Virus record (IMG/VR): IMGVR_UViG_3300024346_000242
Span: 1 to 35,802 of that record
Reading direction: 5' to 3' (one strand)
DNA from: a virus
Length of the DNA: 35,802 nucleotides
The number at the start of each line of letters is the position of its first letter. The stretch's first letter is position 1. The translations under genes and the position numbers were made by a program. Shown in pieces: positions 1,029-35,504 of this stretch. Under the pieces are notes generated by a model, which made no database searches, was not told the DNA's origin, and worked only from the letters and a program-made list of their open reading frames with translations.

Positions 1029-1485
1029 CACTTTTTGAAATATATTTTTCAACTTCAATATTACACTTGGTCAAAAAGTCAGTGCCAAGTGTATCACGAT
1101 ATGACTCTCTGTAGTAAACTTTCCTCACACCTGCGCCATAAATGAGTTTAGCGCAATTGATGCAAGGAGCATGAGTGCAGAATAAATCGGCACCATTGCC
1201 TGATTCGCCATCACGTGCAAGTTTAAGAATAGCATTAGCTTCTGCATGAATAACCTCATCTTTCGTTTTTGTTCTGAACTCAACAATATTACCACAGTCG
1301 TCTAGTACATGACCAATTTCTTCTTCACATACATTGGTCCAACCAGCTGGCATACCATTGTAACCAATTGAGATGATACGATTGTCTTTTACAACAACAG
1401 CACCAACCTTCAATCTTTTTGCACTGGACAACTCTGCGAATCTCTCCGCAGTGTCCATGAATGCATCAACCCACTTTTGTTTCAT
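1009..1485 (-). CDS. cd: dCMP deaminase
   Basis: A zinc-dependent deoxycytidylate deaminase that converts dCMP to dUMP, the substrate of thymidylate synthase. The 158-aa protein shows the catalytic zinc motif HAE at residues 80-82 and PCINC at 107-111 (Cys108 and Cys111 as ligands), in the order typical of the ComE/dCMP deaminase family. T4 carries the same function in gene cd; this protein is shorter than the T4 enzyme. It is the last gene of its transcription unit and starts inside the end of the 2OG oxygenase gene (20-bp overlap). With ThyX and NrdA/B in the same window it forms a dTTP supply route. Confidence 0.93.
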   Translation of the reverse strand: MKQKWVDAFMDTAERFAELSSAKRLKVGAVVVKDNRIISIGYNGMPAGWTNVCEEEIGHVLDDCGNIVEFRTKTKDEVIHAEANAILKLARDGESGNGADLFCTHAPCINCAKLIYGAGVRKVYYRESYRDTLGTDFLTKCNIEVEKYISKSVDLQVV

Positions 1486-2170
1486 TTTTACTTTTTTTTA
1501 TTTGATACTTAGAATTAACTTCATCTTTAAATTTCCCTGTGCCACCTTTCTCATGAGAATACATGTGGTTTAGAAAATTATCAGACTCTGTTTTCATAGA
1601 AGGTGGAATATTCATTAAAAAACAATTTGTGCTATATCTACTACCAGATAGAATCGGACTAACTTCATGTACCCAAAAGAAATCAGCAGGAAATATTAAA
1701 CCATCTCCAACACCCAGAGCAACTTTATGTTTTCCATTCCAAAATTTAAAGTCGCCACCAGTATATCCATCATTTAAATTAAAAGTGCAGCTACCGTATA
1801 CATGTGTATGATGATCTGTATGTGGATGTATTTTATTTCCAACATCATATCGTAATAATCTATGCATATGACTATACAGCATACTATCTCGTAAAGCTAT
1901 ATGGAACATACCCATATCTTCAAGATAATCCATATATTCATTTATGATCTGTTCAGTTTTTTTATGAGAAAGATTAAATGCTTCAGATCCATATTGTAAC
2001 TTAACACGTTTAAATGTAGAGTATGTGTCTATCCCAGAAGTAGCTTCTAGGCAATGCTCTAATTCAATCGTAGACTCTAATTTTTTGTGTTCATCAATTA
2101 AAAACTCACATTCTTCTTTTGTAAAGAACTGGTGTTTATGATAAATTAGCTGTGTTAAATTTATAGTCAT
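1466..2170 (-). CDS. 2OG-Fe(II) oxygenase, prolyl-4-hydroxylase-like
   Basis: A 2-oxoglutarate and iron dependent oxygenase of 234 aa. The facial triad is readable: His117-x-Asp119 and distal His168 (WVHEV), followed by Arg178, the expected 2-oxoglutarate ligand, in SGSRYS. The spacing fits the P4H-like double-stranded beta-helix fold. The substrate cannot be told from the sequence. It follows the flavin-dependent halogenase by 13 nt and overlaps the dCMP deaminase gene, so it is cotranscribed with both. Similar oxygenases occur in cyanophages, sometimes near halogenases (recalled, not checked). It is distinct from the TET/JBP-like fragment at the right edge. Confidence 0.85.
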   Translation of the reverse strand: MTINLTQLIYHKHQFFTKEECEFLIDEHKKLESTIELEHCLEATSGIDTYSTFKRVKLQYGSEAFNLSHKKTEQIINEYMDYLEDMGMFHIALRDSMLYSHMHRLLRYDVGNKIHPHTDHHTHVYGSCTFNLNDGYTGGDFKFWNGKHKVALGVGDGLIFPADFFWVHEVSPILSGSRYSTNCFLMNIPPSMKTESDNFLNHMYSHEKGGTGKFKDEVNSKYQIKKSKNETKVG

Positions 2171-2183
2171 TTATTATTCTCTG

Positions 2184-3683
2184 TTACTGTGTGCAAAAAT
2201 TCAGAAAGTCTTTGTGAGACATGCAAGTCGTGGAAACATTTTTTTGATTGATTAACAATGCATTTGTAATCATAGCAATATCATCACTACTATACTGCTC
2301 TATATTGTGTATAAATTCATTAGCATTAAGTAAATTTAAACCAGATGCAACTTGAATCCAGCTTTTTGGTGGGAATAAAATGTCACTAAAACTAATAGTA
2401 GAATTTGGATTTACATTCAATAATTCTAGAGTTTCTCGCACACTATCACGCATTTTATTTTTCACTCTAAATTCTTTCCAGAAATCAGAATCATTTCTAT
2501 TTGTTAGGTAGTGTAAATATAAAAAGTTAACAACTTCTTCATTTTTATCTTCACAGTATTTGTTAAATTTATTAGCAAATGTAATATTACCGTAATTATT
2601 TACACCATTTGAATTTAAGAATTCATTCAAATTAGTGTAACTAACCCAAATAGAAGTTGCTTCTAATGGCTCAACAAAACTTTGAGATAAACCCACCGCC
2701 ATACAGTTTTTAACTAAAGTAGATTTAAAGGAACCTGCTTCAAATTTAAAAGTTCTCGGGCTATTCAATGAACAACCGAAATATTCTTCAACTTCTTTTA
2801 GTGCATCTTCTTTGGTGATATACGAAGAATCAAAAACATATCCACATCCATATCTTCCTTGAACTGGAATTTTCCACACCCAACCATATTTCATGGCAAT
2901 AGACTCAGTTACTGGAGACACATTATTGTCATGCTCTATAAAGAATGGAAGTGCAGTATCCATGGGAAGACTGTCATTGTATGAAACCCATGGAGTACCA
3001 AAATGATCACCCACGATTAATCGAGCAAATCCAGAGCAATCAAAAATAAAATCACATGAAACTTCTTTTCCATTTTCCAAAGAAAGAGCTATAATATTTC
3101 CAGAGTCATCGTTTTGAAATTTATTAACCTTACCTTCTACTCGATAAATACCTCGAGATTCAGAGACTGCTCTTAAGTGCTTGGCAAGCAAAGTCGCATC
3201 AAAATGTAGTCCATAGCTTCCATGTCGGTCAAACATCATTCCTTCATTATTGATGTATGTGTTAATATTATTTTTAAACGATAGACAAACTTTATTTACA
3301 TAAGAAAGTTTCGCAGCAAAACTTAAGTCACTTAAATTTCTGTCATTATGAATATGATTTAATGGAATTATGTTATCACCGAAAAACTCAGTTAATCCTG
3401 GTTCAGAATTAAAGCTATGAAAATAGCTATTACCATCATTATTCCAGTTTACAAAATTAATACCTAACTTAACAGTACCACGACAGTGACGAATAATATC
3501 ACCAACTCCAACACCAATACTATCCAGCATATCAAGAAATTGAGTAGTAGTTCCCTCACCAGCACCAAGAATTCCAATCTCATCACTTTCGACGACAGTG
3601 ATACTTGCATTTGGATATTTAACTTTTGTTAATAACGCTGTCATCCATCCAGCAGTGCCGCCACCAAGAACTACCAATTCCAT
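2184..3683 (-). CDS. Flavin-dependent tryptophan-type halogenase
   Basis: A 499-aa enzyme of the PrnA/RebH family, which uses FADH2, oxygen and halide to halogenate aromatic substrates. Visible signatures: FAD-binding GGGTAGW at residues 7-13; the lysine expected to carry the haloamine, Lys72 in TVKLGINFVNW; the halogenase motif WVWKIP at 268-273; and a PLEAT motif with Glu341, where PrnA-like enzymes have an active-site glutamate. All key residues are present, so it looks active. A cyanophage relative, VirX1, has been reported to halogenate (iodinate) a range of substrates, so tryptophan need not be the natural one. A good ribosome site (AGAGG) precedes the ATG. No flavin reductase is visible in the window; host FADH2 is presumably used. 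Confidence 0.92.
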   Translation of the reverse strand: MELVVLGGGTAGWMTALLTKVKYPNASITVVESDEIGILGAGEGTTTQFLDMLDSIGVGVGDIIRHCRGTVKLGINFVNWNNDGNSYFHSFNSEPGLTEFFGDNIIPLNHIHNDRNLSDLSFAAKLSYVNKVCLSFKNNINTYINNEGMMFDRHGSYGLHFDATLLAKHLRAVSESRGIYRVEGKVNKFQNDDSGNIIALSLENGKEVSCDFIFDCSGFARLIVGDHFGTPWVSYNDSLPMDTALPFFIEHDNNVSPVTESIAMKYGWVWKIPVQGRYGCGYVFDSSYITKEDALKEVEEYFGCSLNSPRTFKFEAGSFKSTLVKNCMAVGLSQSFVEPLEATSIWVSYTNLNEFLNSNGVNNYGNITFANKFNKYCEDKNEEVVNFLYLHYLTNRNDSDFWKEFRVKNKMRDSVRETLELLNVNPNSTISFSDILFPPKSWIQVASGLNLLNANEFIHNIEQYSSDDIAMITNALLINQKNVSTTCMSHKDFLNFCTQ

Positions 3684-3711
3684 AATATCCTCTTTATTTT
3701 ATCTTTAAGAC

Positions 3712-4179
3712 TTAAGGGTTTTCTGTAGATTCGGCTCCACTCGGAGCCTTTAAGTTTTTTGCTTTCTTTTCCTTTGCAACAGGTGCAGGAATAAATCCAG
3801 CTTCAGCAACTAACTTATGTGTAATTTTTGGATACATTTTAGTTAGCTTCTGATCTTTAATTGCTAGTACCAATTCAGCTTCTGATGGATGTATACTCTC
3901 CAGCAACTGCACAAACAAAGTTTCTTTACGTAGTGGTTTTAAATCAGTACGACAGAAGATATAAAGTTTACGTGTTTCTTGATACAGATTCGCAGGTGTC
4001 ATACCAATCGGTGCTGCATCTTTCTTGAATGGTGGATCACCTTCAGGTAACGCAAACTTCTTTTCTTCCAAGAATGCATGTTCAAAGATTAAACGTAAAG
4101 CACCATTGCCCTTATACTGATCAATCTTTTTAGGATCCGTATTGATTTCCTGTAGAATTTCAGTGATATATTTCGCCAT
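3712..4179 (-). CDS. Conserved phage protein, DUF6433-like
   Basis: A 155-aa protein starting MAKYITEILQEINTD, with a Lys/Pro/Ala-rich, probably disordered C-terminal tail (about residues 132-155). It resembles the DUF6433 proteins of T4-like aquatic phages; their function is not known to me. There are no membrane segments or catalytic motifs. It lies 9 nt downstream of RNase H, which suggests an early or replication-period role. Confidence 0.7.
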   Translation of the reverse strand: MAKYITEILQEINTDPKKIDQYKGNGALRLIFEHAFLEEKKFALPEGDPPFKKDAAPIGMTPANLYQETRKLYIFCRTDLKPLRKETLFVQLLESIHPSEAELVLAIKDQKLTKMYPKITHKLVAEAGFIPAPVAKEKKAKNLKAPSGAESTENP

Positions 4180-30750: not shown

Positions 30751-31353
30751 TTAGACTAAGTGTTGATTCATAAATGCAAGAACTTTCCCTTGCTCCTCTA
30801 AGTTGGTGTTTACAAACTCAGTAATATAGGGCATCAACTCGAAGTTAGAGAGGATGTTACTATATTTAGTCGCCCTACCTTTTAGGAATGTCTCAGACTG
30901 ATCAGATCCACGATCTACATAACGCTGTCTAAGAATAGCATCTGGAACCTTTAGATAGATGACTTGGAGATCTATGTTCTCAAGATCCATTGAGAACTCT
31001 AGAAACGACTGATTAAAGATTCGGTCGCCTTCGAACAGGATATTTGAGGTGGTTTCTTTGGCAAACTCTTGAGCCACTGGTTGGACTGCCATGGACAAAC
31101 GATCTGTGCCAGCAAAGGTTTCACCATCCTCATACTTACCTAGGATGTATAGATCAAGTGCCTTACAATAGAGTGCAGGTAGCATCTTCTTAGGCTCCAC
31201 CCTTTCCCACTCATGTGCTTCCATAAACTTACGGAACAGTGTAGTCTTACCAGTTCCTGGCTGGCCACCCACTGCCAGCAGTTTACGCTTCTTTACATTA
31301 CCTTTAATTAGTTGGACAGAAATAACATCTCCAACTCCAAACTTATCATGCAT
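30751..31353 (-). CDS. P-loop kinase, 5-hydroxymethyluridine DNA kinase-like
   Basis: 200 aa from ATG 31353, whose ATG overlaps the preceding stop (ATGCATGA) and which has GAGGAAG upstream. Walker A is GGQPGTGKTT at residues 29-38. LGKYEDGETFAGTDRLSMAV and ILFEGDRIFNQSFL resemble the phage 5-hmdU DNA kinase (HMUDK) family, which phosphorylates hydroxymethyluracil in DNA to make a leaving group. RQRYVDRGSDQSETFLKGR looks like the arginine-rich lid. The assignment draws on remembered family features and on its transferase neighbour; a generic nucleotide kinase is the alternative. Confidence 0.75.
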   Translation of the reverse strand: MHDKFGVGDVISVQLIKGNVKKRKLLAVGGQPGTGKTTLFRKFMEAHEWERVEPKKMLPALYCKALDLYILGKYEDGETFAGTDRLSMAVQPVAQEFAKETTSNILFEGDRIFNQSFLEFSMDLENIDLQVIYLKVPDAILRQRYVDRGSDQSETFLKGRATKYSNILSNFELMPYITEFVNTNLEEQGKVLAFMNQHLV

Positions 31354-31780
31354 AACGTGCTTCCTCAATCAATTGAATCAATTCTTCCTTAGTGAAAACA
31401 TAAACTCTGCCATAGAAGTGATGCGTGTCATCATCGATTAGTTTCTTCTTAGTGAATGTCATTTTATTAATGACTTCTGTGGTAGCTTTCTTAGCAATAT
31501 TTAATTTAATATGATCAGCATAGTCTGGTTGAACTTCTTTCAGTTTCAGCATTTCCATTTCTGAAATTTTATGATCAACTACAATAAGATTCATTTCTCG
31601 TCTATCAAGAAGTTCTTGTGCTGAAGTTGTAATAGTAAGTGTTGATGTAGCCGTAGAATTAGTATAACTAGTATAATTAGAACTTCCTATCATAATTCCA
31701 CCAGTAATACTATTAGAAGTAGGTGTAATCATATCTTGTGGTAGTGTAGTAACAGTACTACCCATATTCATATCGCTCAT
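31346..31780 (-). CDS. Conserved T4-like phage protein (144 aa)
   Basis: A Ser/Thr/Asn/Met-rich low-complexity N-terminus (about residues 1-50) precedes a conserved C-terminal half: VVDHKISEMEMLKLKEVQPD, then VINKMTFTKKK and FYGRVYVFTKEELIQLIEEA. The C-terminal pattern is common in T4-like phages, function unknown. GGAG lies 8 nt before the ATG. It overlaps the transferase gene upstream and the kinase gene downstream, so all three are cotranslated; a role as partner of the modification enzymes is possible. Confidence 0.7.
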   Translation of the reverse strand: MSDMNMGSTVTTLPQDMITPTSNSITGGIMIGSSNYTSYTNSTATSTLTITTSAQELLDRREMNLIVVDHKISEMEMLKLKEVQPDYADHIKLNIAKKATTEVINKMTFTKKKLIDDDTHHFYGRVYVFTKEELIQLIEEARYA

Positions 31781-32796
31781 GTAAATATCTCCAATCCTAA
31801 AGGTTGCGGTTGCTCATCATCAAACATCCAGTATAAGTTTTCTATTCTACCTGATCTAATAAAATTAGGAAACTTTTCTTTATCAATACCATGTTCATGA
31901 TCTAAACGCAATTCAAGAGTTTCGTTTCTTGCTTGCCATAAAACATTCCAATCAATGCCATACCAACCATCTGATTCGCATTGTTGGATTTCTTCACATT
32001 GACGATCTAAGTAGTAACCCAAATAGCGTCCATGTTTCTCTCGGAAGATCTTCTTGAAAGAACACAAGCAAGTTTCCATTGTAAAGAAGTCTACTTGACT
32101 TTCCACTTCTGGGAATCTATCTCGTACTTCTTCAAGAATACTTCTGCCATGCGCCTCAAGTCGTTGATACTCCAATGTAGTGAGTTTTCGATCCACATCG
32201 TCTTCTTGTCCAAGGGCATAAAGTAATCCATTACGATGAGAACGAGAGCCATCATAATCGTCCAACATAAGACTAGTGGGCTCAATACGAACACCAGCAG
32301 TGTGCTTGAGATGTTGCATATAGAACCAAGTAGAATAACGCCCAAACTTATGCAGGCTTCCCTTAAGTATCTCCCACAATCGTGTAAAGTTTTGTTCTTC
32401 TGTATCTCCATAATAACTCTGTAATTTCTCACGCTGTGATTTATCGCCAATGAATTCTTGATAAGAAGCAAACATCGTAGGTAAGTGCCCTTTGTTCCAC
32501 TTTGTATCAGTTTGATAACGAAGTCGTTTATAGTTGGCAGTGTTCCATTGGGTAATACGATCTACTGTTGCTAACTCAAAGTCTGGGAATTCATTCATGA
32601 GAACCCATGCAGTTGGAAGGTAGTAAGTATTACCGTAAAGCCATGCTAGCCATAAACGCTGTTCATCATTGTGTTCGTATCGTTTGTTTAGATAGTTAGT
32701 CGCCCATACCGCTGGATCACAGTCATCATATTTCATTGACCATGCATACCAGCGGATGAATGCTTCACGTCGATTTTCTTTTAGTCTATAATCCAT
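31777..32796 (-). CDS. Amino acid:DNA transferase / thymine pyrophosphorylase-like protein
   Basis: 339 aa, rich in Trp and Tyr. It shows a pattern I associate with phage base-hypermodification enzymes (ADDT and aGPT-PPlase type): IRWYAWSMKYDDCDPAVW, EQRLWLAWLYGNTYYLPTAW, then NYKRLRYQTDTKWNKGHLP. In that scheme the enzyme replaces the phosphate on phosphorylated hydroxymethyl-dU in DNA with an amino acid or polyamine. The kinase for the preceding step lies two genes downstream, with overlapping genes throughout. Exact clade and donor cannot be read from the sequence. ATG 32796 overlaps the previous stop by 1 nt. Confidence 0.75.
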   Translation of the reverse strand: MDYRLKENRREAFIRWYAWSMKYDDCDPAVWATNYLNKRYEHNDEQRLWLAWLYGNTYYLPTAWVLMNEFPDFELATVDRITQWNTANYKRLRYQTDTKWNKGHLPTMFASYQEFIGDKSQREKLQSYYGDTEEQNFTRLWEILKGSLHKFGRYSTWFYMQHLKHTAGVRIEPTSLMLDDYDGSRSHRNGLLYALGQEDDVDRKLTTLEYQRLEAHGRSILEEVRDRFPEVESQVDFFTMETCLCSFKKIFREKHGRYLGYYLDRQCEEIQQCESDGWYGIDWNVLWQARNETLELRLDHEHGIDKEKFPNFIRSGRIENLYWMFDDEQPQPLGLEIFT

Positions 32797-33374
32797 TATT
32801 TACAGAATAATGTAACATCATCACATACATAGCTACCATATTTTTTAAAATAATTGTTTTTCATAGTGCCATCAAAATTGAACTCGAAATTCAAATTACC
32901 ACCTTTGTCTGTAAGTTCATTCCACTGAGGATAAGGAATACGTACAAGTAGAATTCTACTAAGTGTTTCATCTTCTGGATTGTAAACAGTGATTGCTATT
33001 CGCAGTGTTCCAACTTTATTGCGAAGTGACTTACCAGAAAGACAGCAGTTTAGCATTCTAGACTGATAATGCGAGACTGTTCCATCTTTTTTTGTATGAT
33101 AGGAGTTGGTGACTTTGATTCGAGTTGACATATACTTAGCATCACTCTTGTCAGTAAAATCCATGCCAGTTTCGTTGGATCTTTTTTTCTTGGGATTAAT
33201 TAGAGTAATAAAATTTTCTAACACATTGGATAAAGATAAGTCTCCACCCGCAGTCATTTGCAGAAAAACTTTTTTACTCATTCCAGAGTATTTGTTTTTA
33301 TAACCATGTTCCCAGAAGTATTCAGCTGCGATACGTTCAGTAATAGCAGATGCTTTAGTATGATTAGAAGCCAT
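32796..33374 (-). CDS. PD-(D/E)XK nuclease-like protein (192 aa)
   Basis: GMDFTDKSDAKY holds Asp72, then Asp78-Ala-Lys80, resembling the D...(D/E)xK metal site of restriction-type nucleases, and Glu13 in an N-terminal helix could complete it. The rest is beta-rich (RIAITVYNP, ILLVRIPYP) as expected for that fold. It could be a nuclease that spares or targets DNA according to modification; a non-catalytic structural role is possible. It is the first gene after the promoter at 33406-33434; the leader of about 25 nt has no clear Shine-Dalgarno sequence. Confidence 0.5.
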   Translation of the reverse strand: MASNHTKASAITERIAAEYFWEHGYKNKYSGMSKKVFLQMTAGGDLSLSNVLENFITLINPKKKRSNETGMDFTDKSDAKYMSTRIKVTNSYHTKKDGTVSHYQSRMLNCCLSGKSLRNKVGTLRIAITVYNPEDETLSRILLVRIPYPQWNELTDKGGNLNFEFNFDGTMKNNYFKKYGSYVCDDVTLFCK

Positions 33375-33405
33375 AATATATAAAAGATCAAGTTTCGATA
33401 AGACT

Positions 33406-33434
33406 ATTATACTACAAAAACGAATTTAAGTCAA
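33406..33434 (-). promoter_or_regulatory. Sigma70-like promoter inside the GNAT gene
   Basis: TTGACT (33429-33434) and TATAAT (33406-33411) on the minus strand with a 17-bp spacer. The -35 and spacer overlap the last codons and stop of the acetyltransferase gene, so the kinase/transferase unit can be expressed separately from the amidoligase unit. Confidence 0.87.
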
Positions 33435-33966
33435 CACTTTCTTGCATGATGTAGGACAGGGCTAGGCTTCCCTTTCGACCACTATAAAGTGCTTTTTGCA
33501 GAACTGGGTCTTTGTCGTCGTAAATGCCCTCTAGAATAGTATCGCCTGCAATCTTAAACATGCTTAGACTACATCCACTTTTTTGTTTACCCCAGAACTT
33601 GAACCCAATGCTTTCATAAAATGCAACAGCTTCTGGTTCTGCAGAAACTCTAAAGTAAACTGCACCAGCAAGTTTAACAACTTGATATGATGTTAGGGTT
33701 AATTCTTTGGCAACACCCCTACGACGATGTTTATTGAATGTGTGCAGCAATTGTAGGTTTGCCACTCTTGGATTAGTTTTTCCAAGAGTGGTAATAATTG
33801 CACCCATTAACTCGCCATTATTATTAAATGCACCATAACATTCATCCCACTGCTCTTGCATATCTGCTTTGGCTCTGAATGTCTTGGCGAAACCATCGGC
33901 TTTGTCGTCAGTGATAGCTGCGACAAATTCATCTCTGGAACATTTACGCAACTGCAAGGTATTCAC
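33412..33966 (-). CDS. GNAT-family N-acetyltransferase
   Basis: 184 aa from GTG 33966 (an ATG at 34023 would overlap the amidoligase gene by 80 nt). The GNAT core is visible: LQLLHTFNKHRRRGVAKELT with the acetyl-CoA binding R-x-x-G pattern, followed by VSAEPEAVAFYESIGFKFWG, the usual end of the fold. It transfers an acetyl group from acetyl-CoA to an amine; the substrate is unknown. Its place after an amidoligase and a glutamine amidotransferase makes a modified-base or peptide-like amine a reasonable candidate. Confidence 0.85.
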   Translation of the reverse strand: MNTLQLRKCSRDEFVAAITDDKADGFAKTFRAKADMQEQWDECYGAFNNNGELMGAIITTLGKTNPRVANLQLLHTFNKHRRRGVAKELTLTSYQVVKLAGAVYFRVSAEPEAVAFYESIGFKFWGKQKSGCSLSMFKIAGDTILEGIYDDKDPVLQKALYSGRKGSLALSYIMQESVDLNSFL

Positions 33967-34822
33967 GTTGTTTGTTACCACGCTCTTTATCCCACTTTGT
34001 GTTAATCCAACCAATATACTCATTGAGATCCCAAACGAATGGCGGGAACTTGTAGTTATCTGCTGCTAGAATTTCTTTAACACTTGGTCCATCGTTCAAT
34101 GCCGCATCAATAAACTTCTCTGCAAAACGGAACTGTGATTCAATCTCATCATGTTTGGTTGACGAACGGAAACAACGGAACTCGATTGTACCTGTGTGCT
34201 TCATACAGTAAGTATTGATGGCATAGCGGAATGGACGACCCATTGATACACCATCTTTGCCAGCAGCATGTAACTTGATAAAGTGGTCAAAGTCTGTTGC
34301 TAGATTGATGATATTGTCACACATATATTCTGGCATTTCTCGTCCGCCATCATACTTGAGATACATCTTAGCACCCTTGGAACCTTTCATCTGTCCAGTC
34401 TCATAGAAACCATAACATGACTCAATGGTATCTTTTTGGTTGGCTTTGATATAAGCAACAAGTTTCTTCAATGAAGCTACGTCATCTTTAAGTCCTGGAA
34501 CGAACACATGAAGGTGACCATGATTGACGCATGAAGCAGAAGGTTGATTGCCATTATCAACAAAGAACTGATGTAGTTCCATTACACGATCTACTTGTTC
34601 TTTCCAAGTAGCAGTTGGCTTGGTGTTAATCTCTCCACCCATCCATGGTTCAATGCCAAGAGGATCACAAGCAATATACTTGACTGGTTCATGAATGTTA
34701 ACAATATCAGTTTCAGCAAATTCCCATTTACCAAGATGCTCAGGTGGAGTTAAACGACGATCTACATCACCCCACTCAATTTCATAACCCCATGTAAATT
34801 TATCAGATGCGTACTGTTTCAT
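33944..34822 (-). CDS. Amidoligase-like (COOH-NH2 ligase) protein
   Basis: 292 aa. Features of glutamine-synthetase-fold amidoligases: FTWGYEIEWGD near the N-terminus (metal-binding Glu), GGEINTKPT (second Glu), HGHLHVFV (about residues 101-108), and NTYCMKHTGTIEFRCFRSS (C-terminal Glu and Arg). These enzymes join a carboxylate to an amine using ATP. The start overlaps the glutamine amidotransferase stop by 20 nt. Published analyses of this family describe phage operons with a glutamine amidotransferase and acetyltransferase, as here. The product is unknown. Confidence 0.8.
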   Translation of the reverse strand: MKQYASDKFTWGYEIEWGDVDRRLTPPEHLGKWEFAETDIVNIHEPVKYIACDPLGIEPWMGGEINTKPTATWKEQVDRVMELHQFFVDNGNQPSASCVNHGHLHVFVPGLKDDVASLKKLVAYIKANQKDTIESCYGFYETGQMKGSKGAKMYLKYDGGREMPEYMCDNIINLATDFDHFIKLHAAGKDGVSMGRPFRYAINTYCMKHTGTIEFRCFRSSTKHDEIESQFRFAEKFIDAALNDGPSVKEILAADNYKFPPFVWDLNEYIGWINTKWDKERGNKQREYLAVA

Positions 34823-35504
34823 ATTCTAGTCCTTGCAAATCAGCATTATTAGTATATACTTTCTGGATCGTAACGGCTAAGTCTTGATCAATATTCATAT
34901 ATGTATTCATTGGAACTTCTACAGTCATATCTAATCCTGCACGTTTGGCAACGTCTTCAGTAGAAGTAATTATATACCCATTAGATAAAGAAGTAAAATA
35001 AATTGGTCGTTTTCCATTACGATAAAATCTTAACCTTTTACAAAACCACAATTCACAAACTGCCAAAGAAGATTCAACCCATGTTGTGATTGGACATTTA
35101 TCATCTTCTATTGTATGAAGAAGTAATTCACTGTCGTTTTTGGTAACACAGTCGTAACCATAAAGATCTTTCCACTTCTCTGGCAACTCTTGAGTAATCA
35201 CACCATTGTGGACTATCGACAAAGTATCATTATTAAATGGCTGATTAAATTCAAGATCACTAGTACTATAACGACAGTGCCCAACCATGTATAGATTCCC
35301 ATCTTCATTAAGATACTTTGGGAAATCAAAAGGAAATTGATCAGCAGCAACTGGCAACTTCTCAGTATGGATTTGATATTCCTTAACATACGATAATCCT
35401 GTAGCATGCATTCCTCTAATTTTAGATTCAAGGAATACATGTTTGATGGTATCAAAATCTTCTTGAGAAGGTTTCTTAATAATTACACCAATGATACCAC
35501 ACAT
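34803..35504 (-). CDS. Class II glutamine amidotransferase
   Basis: 233 aa, a single-domain N-terminal-nucleophile amidohydrolase. Cys2 follows the initiator Met (MCGIIGV); RGMHATG (30-36), GHCRYST (75-81), HNG (99-101) and NDSE (123-126) are the glutamine-binding and oxyanion elements of the GlmS/PurF type. There is no synthase domain, so the ammonia must be passed to a separate enzyme; the amidoligase encoded next, with overlapping genes, is the obvious partner. Its ATG overlaps the stop of the upstream gene (TGATG). Confidence 0.9.
   Translation of the reverse strand: MCGIIGVIIKKPSQEDFDTIKHVFLESKIRGMHATGLSYVKEYQIHTEKLPVAADQFPFDFPKYLNEDGNLYMVGHCRYSTSDLEFNQPFNNDTLSIVHNGVITQELPEKWKDLYGYDCVTKNDSELLLHTIEDDKCPITTWVESSLAVCELWFCKRLRFYRNGKRPIYFTSLSNGYIITSTEDVAKRAGLDMTVEVPMNTYMNIDQDLAVTIQKVYTNNADLQGLEYETVRI

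Follow-up and report, generated by a model that had tools for sequence, protein, structure and literature searches.

The IMG/VR virus record IMGVR_UViG_3300024346_000242 covers 35.8 kb of the genome of a T4-like virus (hereafter the window, meaning the entire analysed stretch of 35,802 nucleotides), whose minus strand encodes RNaseH, a DUF6433 protein, a gp33-like regulator, NrdA/NrdB, ThyX and primase. On the same strand lie two genes for putative tailoring enzymes, a 499-residue flavin-dependent halogenase (PF04820; 2184-3683) and a 234-residue 2-oxoglutarate (2OG)-Fe(II) oxygenase (PF13640, phrog_61; 1466-2170), which are flanked upstream by the DUF6433 gene (3712-4179) and downstream by a gene for dCMP deaminase (1009-1485; PF00383, 1.3e-22), the latter flank being present in relatives with or without the pair. 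The two genes are best read as a horizontally moved tailoring cassette in a T4-like virus.

Both reading frames are intact. The halogenase matches the full PF04820 domain (profile positions 2-445 of 458, E = 1.5e-106, 357 bits against a cut-off of 21) as well as phrog_2928 (3.5e-102), and the oxygenase, which is the only PF13640 gene in the whole window, matches its Pfam family with 34.9 bits against a cut-off of 27 (3.1e-8) and phrog_61 with 2.6e-25. The genes are separated by 28 nt between DUF6433 and the halogenase, 13 nt between the halogenase and the oxygenase and -20 nt between the oxygenase and the deaminase, where the end of the oxygenase frame (..NETKVG*) overlaps the deaminase start by 20 nt (1466-1485, minus strand). 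Because of this tight spacing, a single transcript running from DUF6433 through dCMP deaminase is plausible. A contig from another metagenome (L001) carries the same pair at 99.8% identity over 4 kb, with four substitutions between the two halogenase genes, all of them synonymous, and the pair is therefore not an assembly artefact; these two near-identical contigs are the ones in which the cassette was found.

The halogenase displays the GxGxxG flavin site (GGGTAG, residues 7-12), Lys72, the WxWxIP motif (WVWKIP, residues 268-273) and Glu341, with Lys72 and Glu341 aligning to Lys79 and Glu346 of PrnA. Across the 75 halogenases from viral contigs and phages over which residue conservation was counted, the lysine is present in 75/75 and the glutamate in 64/75, the remainder having histidine (seven), glutamine (three, all from cyanophages) or aspartate (one). 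The corresponding oxygenase residues, His117-x-Asp119, His168 and Arg178, are invariant in 14/14 aligned sequences. The initial annotation had described two complete enzymes forming a cassette, cotranscribed with nucleotide-metabolism genes, and had named loss of Lys72 or Glu341 in relatives as grounds for doubt. The intact frames and catalytic residues bear out the completeness of both active sites, the lysine proves universal and the glutamate is mostly kept, and cotranscription stands as a plausible reading of the gene spacing. In a freshwater viral-contig clade (L037-L051), histidine replaces the active-site glutamate (EPLHATS) and the halogenase gene is flanked by a primase-like gene and a DNA polymerase III alpha-like gene.

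Insertion between the DUF6433 and dCMP deaminase genes

The loci of relatives used for comparison of the site were gathered through the RNaseH gene. In the three closest of these (L083, L084 and L085, whose RNaseH sequences are 98, 96 and 94% identical to that of the window), the gene order is RNaseH-DUF6433-dCMP deaminase and the site is empty; the window runs collinear with its relatives as far as 3704-3725, and collinearity resumes at position 1485, where the deaminase ATG lies. The inserted segment therefore spans approximately 2.2 kb (1486-3711, minus strand), with a left edge that is approximate within 3704-3725 and a right edge set by the deaminase start codon, and its GC content is 31.9% versus 38.6% for the window. 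The same site between DUF6433 and dCMP deaminase holds different genes in other relatives, and two unrelated inserts, which from reading their sequences without a search we take to be a short-chain dehydrogenase/reductase (SDR; L086) and a carbamoyltransferase (L223), terminate in ..ETKMG and overlap the deaminase start in the same way. A stem-loop at the left junction (3733-3748) is kept in relatives, and the empty site of L084 combines it with a TTGACT-17-TATAAT, sigma-70-like promoter-like sequence before the deaminase; at the left junction of the window the stem-loop is retained and no promoter-like site was seen. A mobile regulatory cassette composed of a T4-type early promoter and a stem-loop at a shuffled site is a concept reportedly put forward by Arbiol et al. 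in 2010.

We infer from this sequence comparison that the two genes arrived together, as an accessory 'moron', at a hotspot flanked by DUF6433 and dCMP deaminase, and the nucleotide-metabolism context would thus be merely their landing place. The link to nucleotide metabolism that was drawn at first is positional, as close relatives share the locus without the pair and the insertion point also serves unrelated genes. That the pair is there because of a functional tie to dCMP deaminase was likewise rejected on the grounds of the empty sites and of unrelated inserts ending at the same codon. The hotspot is also filled by phrog_7084 (230-290 aa) in many phages with no halogenase in view.

Relatives and predicted folds of the two enzymes

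The nearest kin of the window halogenase are gammaproteobacterial enzymes from metagenome-assembled genomes (MAGs), at 45-47% identity, its relatives on viral contigs reach at most 46%, and in the tree it groups with the gammaproteobacterial rows and the phage loci L002 and L254 (SH-aLRT 97), far from VirX1. Its AlphaFold model (pLDDT 87) has flavin-dependent halogenases as all of its best PDB matches, with structural Z-scores of 48-52 for SttH, 9LUQ, Xcc4156 and BrvH and of 38 for VirX1. Three of these, BrvH (6FRL), Xcc4156 (6Y1W) and the Pseudoalteromonas halogenase 9LUQ, match it best in sequence and nearly best in structure (phmmer 2.3e-63 for BrvH; Z 48-50.5 for the three) and share GxGxxG, WxWxIP, the lysine and the glutamate with it; however, they are stand-alone bacterial halogenases rather than phage-borne ones, are 27-29% identical over the structural alignment and carry the motif serine where the window enzyme has Ala342.

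Phage halogenases have been known since VirX1, the enzyme of cyanophage Syn10 (6QGM; identified here as L082:5499-7091), and the window halogenase had initially been called VirX1-like. Both are phage-borne PF04820 halogenases with the same catalytic residues, but they are 25% identical, the window enzyme falls into a separate supported clade, VirX1 has ESTG (ESTG/ESNG in its group, with Ser and Gly kept) where the window has EATS, and its gene is located after tail-fibre-like genes and adjoins phrog_7084. Together with the lower structural score, these differences in identity and clade led us to reject membership in the VirX1 group. The phrog_7084 family, of unknown function, turns up repeatedly close to phage halogenases, among them VirX1 in Syn10 (L082:7075-7863) and those of L232, L235, L238, L034:5273-5977, L254:3185-4006, L175 and L181, and phrog_17480 adjoins the halogenase in L002 and L254.

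The closest homologue from an isolate phage, the tryptophan halogenase AGE60413 of the Pelagibacter phage HTVC008M (39.6%), directly adjoins a 2OG-type gene as the window enzyme does, although there the 2OG gene lies upstream and belongs to another subfamily, and the locus is found between terminase subunits. Furthermore, the window halogenase belongs to the same flavoenzyme superfamily as the peptide-type halogenases LooH and MibH and the flavin monooxygenase QhpG: LooH is its second best PDB sequence match, MibH, titled as a lanthipeptide Trp halogenase, is among its structure matches, and QhpG is the best NCBIfam match, below the cut-off. These three enzymes modify peptides or peptide-bound Trp and belong to bacterial biosynthetic clusters, from which the window pair differs in having no nearby precursor peptide.

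The predicted model of the oxygenase is of moderate confidence (pLDDT 77), and its fold is closest by Foldseek to prolyl 4-hydroxylases (P4Hs). Among the matches are the algal P4H with a Ser-Pro peptide (3GZE), the P. putida P4H (4J25/4IW3), the viral collagen P4H of PBCV-1 (vCPH, 5C5T) and PiuC/PKHD, which are the top ones, as well as PHD2, and they include a P4H acting on EF-Tu. The P4H-type enzymes share the HxD...H residues and the 2OG-binding arginine with the window oxygenase, and at 14-19% identity the likeness is one of predicted fold only. By sequence, its closest relatives (~51% identity) belong to a marine-phage subfamily represented by 12 viral loci (L054-L069), in which the 2OG gene overlaps by 4 bp a downstream halogenase that is 27% identical to that of the window; the subfamily adjoins two halogenase lineages, in opposite gene orders.

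Halogenase-2OG association and gene neighbourhoods

Halogenases paired with a 2OG gene are also found in bacteria and, in related phages, at a second type of locus. Among the bacterial nearest kin, L248, L251, L252 and L260 carry a different 2OG gene 23-53 bp upstream of the halogenase (PF13640 confirmed for L248 and L251), and the genome behind L175, a related phage, has, between nrdA and nrdB, a divergent halogenase gene with a DUF6445 (2OG-like) gene after it. The gammaproteobacterial halogenases of L248-L253 have large conserved genes, TonB-receptor-like or other, in their vicinity, and some of these halogenases have a PF13640 gene directly upstream.

We compared 24 halogenase loci from 21 isolate or single-cell phage records with random placement and determined that a 2OG gene is located within 2.5 kb of the halogenase at 16/24 loci versus 5.4 expected (p ~2e-6), and within 700 bp at 5/24 versus 3.0 expected, a difference that is not significant. 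Among 50 halogenase lineages (60% identity clusters), with the expectation taken from each lineage's own local 2OG density, a 2OG gene is directly adjacent in 12 versus 7.2 expected (p ~0.02), the lineages not being fully independent of one another; both tests are uncorrected for deeper relatedness. A search of the 50 halogenase contigs for PhyH (PF05721) gave no match above the cut-off. The association is genuine on a regional scale, but a minority of lineages show strict adjacency, so adjacency alone constitutes modest evidence. The concern that the two genes might rarely be neighbours is thus borne out in part, strict adjacency being confined to 12 of the 50 lineages. Proximity exceeds chance, and this, along with the apparent entry of the window pair as one unit, sustains its description as a cassette.

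Three kinds of context recur around these halogenases. In the first, the halogenase is part of a tail-fibre, glycine-rich or collagen-like block that in many cases also holds 2OG genes (Sf-CH11, S-WAM1, S-CREM1, S-SRM01, DSL-LC01, L006, L255 and L263). In the second, represented by L005 and L049, which belong to the same halogenase clade as the window, 2OG genes surround the halogenase in a peptide-type cluster that encodes a Cys-rich precursor-like protein (128-133 aa, 42% identical between the two, 16-19 Cys, NCxNGNC..., with a Trp at the end) and a SPASM radical-SAM protein (66% identical), whose best matches are below the cut-off and mostly peptide maturases. The third comprises replication/nucleotide regions, namely those of the window, L175/L181, L274-L276 and L022. 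The first two contexts suggest proteins or peptides as the target, and the third provides no pointer to it.

These loci hold further features of their own. The clusters of L005 (2280-7521) and L049 (637-7033), which resemble those of ribosomally synthesized and post-translationally modified peptides (RiPPs), also encode an unknown protein of ~210 aa, L049 has an additional B12-type radical-SAM protein, and the Bacteroidetes MAG contig L261 presents a similar set with the precursor not in view. Sulfotransferase-like genes directly adjoin the halogenases of L007, L012 and L254, the first two of which also carry cupin/JmjC-like and several 2OG genes. The genome behind L175 (L275, L276, L277), a 165 kb T4-like phage record, encodes three different halogenases, one beside a clamp-loader gene, one between nrdA and nrdB with DUF6445 and one after dCMP deaminase, and in L274 (4648-7756) a halogenase lies between a gp45-like sliding clamp and a clamp-loader gene.

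Proposed substrate of the pair

In view of the intact residues, the insertion as a pair, the recurrent 2OG pairing and the P4H-like fold, we favour a cassette with a shared protein or peptide target, the choice of such a target resting on the tail-fibre and peptide-cluster contexts and on the oxygenase fold. That both enzymes act on one protein or peptide is our best guess and the least certain step, held tentatively and in the expectation that it could well turn out otherwise. From what is known of the two families, the halogenase would take FADH2 from a host flavin reductase and, with O2 and halide, generate hypohalous acid (HOX), which would be relayed through Lys72 for the halogenation of an electron-rich aromatic ring with the assistance of Glu341, and the oxygenase would hydroxylate an unactivated C-H bond with the help of Fe(II), 2OG and O2. 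In one shared protein or peptide, most likely a protein made by the phage, Trp or Tyr may thus be halogenated and a Pro-like or neighbouring residue hydroxylated.

Along with the non-significant enrichment at close range and the incomplete independence of the lineages, several observations weigh against this proposal. 2OG genes are common in such phages, which makes adjacency alone weak, and the 2OG subfamily of the window often occurs without a halogenase (L062, L070-L079), as it does in the AG-345-F15 record. The window pair has no candidate substrate gene next to it, and its locus is a replication/nucleotide region rather than a tail module. The Fx.Px.Sx.G tunnel motif reported for active flavin-dependent halogenases (PMC8407142) is altered in the window enzyme, which has F336..P339..A342.S344; most of its clade has these two residues as well, with alanine in 56/75 and serine in 57/75 halogenases at those positions, and BrvH, a proven enzyme, likewise has serine at the glycine position. 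For the family, the motif serves as a diagnostic feature, not a defining one. Finally, a literature search found no biochemical data for the halogenase clade of the window.

The modification of a host small molecule during infection (such as tryptophan, indole or a phenolic, pigment or signal compound) is the usual suggestion for cyanophage halogenases. Such a metabolic role would suit the early/replicative-type gene block better than virion decoration, the predicted halogenase fold has both free-Trp halogenases and BrvH and Xcc4156 among its matches, and a wide range of small aromatic and heterocyclic compounds can be substrates of VirX1 in vitro (PMC8407142). The oxygenase fold, however, is closest to hydroxylases of protein prolines, and clade neighbours are often peptide- or virion-associated; we regard a host metabolite as an unlikely target, though one to be taken seriously. 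The sequence alignment of the window halogenase stops short of the Trp-binding C-terminal region of PrnA/RebH.

Alternatively, two accessory genes with no common substrate could merely be travelling together, as would befit a hotspot occupied by unrelated genes in relatives, the abundance of 2OG genes in such phages and a strict adjacency weakly above background. We consider this quite improbable, given that the sole PF13640 gene of the window is the very neighbour of the halogenase, that the 2OG subfamily to which it belongs is found together with halogenases of two separate lineages and that such pairs recur in bacteria and at the second phage locus type.

A nucleobase had also been named among the possible targets, and halogenases of related phages do adjoin dCMP deaminase (L175, L181) or dUTPase (L022) or lie between nrdA and nrdB (L276) or between the sliding clamp and the clamp loader (L274), while the window itself encodes ADDT and a P-loop nucleotide kinase. 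Nevertheless, the closest relatives lack the pair and retain the deaminase and DUF6433, a halogenase is missing from long relatives that carry ADDT, and the best structure matches of the oxygenase are prolyl hydroxylases rather than DNA-base oxygenases. Modification of nucleotides or DNA bases to halogenated or hydroxylated pyrimidines is accordingly very unlikely, and the 2OG fold and the ADDT-carrying relatives led us to reject it as the principal reading. The genes for the kinase (PF18751) and for ADDT, an amino acid:DNA transferase (PF18724, 1e-21), lie at 30751-35504 of the window in a possible DNA-base hypermodification island, together with a GNAT gene, a weak amidoligase-like gene and a class II glutamine amidotransferase gene. 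Lastly, inactive or recently acquired passenger genes, to which the altered tunnel motif and the occurrence in two near-identical contigs might point, are an extremely improbable explanation in the face of full-length frames, an invariant catalytic lysine, conserved Fe-binding residues and synonymous-only differences between the two halogenase copies.

We know of no description of halogenated phage proteins. Halogenases have been reported in 20/153 cyanophages (PMC10452541), and prnA along with many 2OG genes in T4-like cyanophages (PMC3037559); in the open-access literature, we found no report of halogenase-2OG cassettes as such and no natural substrate assigned to any phage halogenase. The empty site, the repeated occurrence of a 2OG partner and the sister loci that combine a precursor-like peptide and a radical-SAM maturase lead to a specific idea, protein or peptide halogenation coupled to hydroxylation, which replaces that of a broad metabolite halogenase. 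It is conceivable, if on balance doubtful, that phages of this and related lineages carry mobile cassettes with which they halogenate and hydroxylate proteins or peptides of their own after translation, and of which the window pair would be the minimal two-enzyme version; the targets might then be, with similar reservation, proteins of the tail-fibre type or Cys-rich, RiPP-like peptides that radical-SAM enzymes mature in the sister loci. If true, this would represent a new class of phage protein modification, and if false, the same loci would still provide a short list of candidate substrates.

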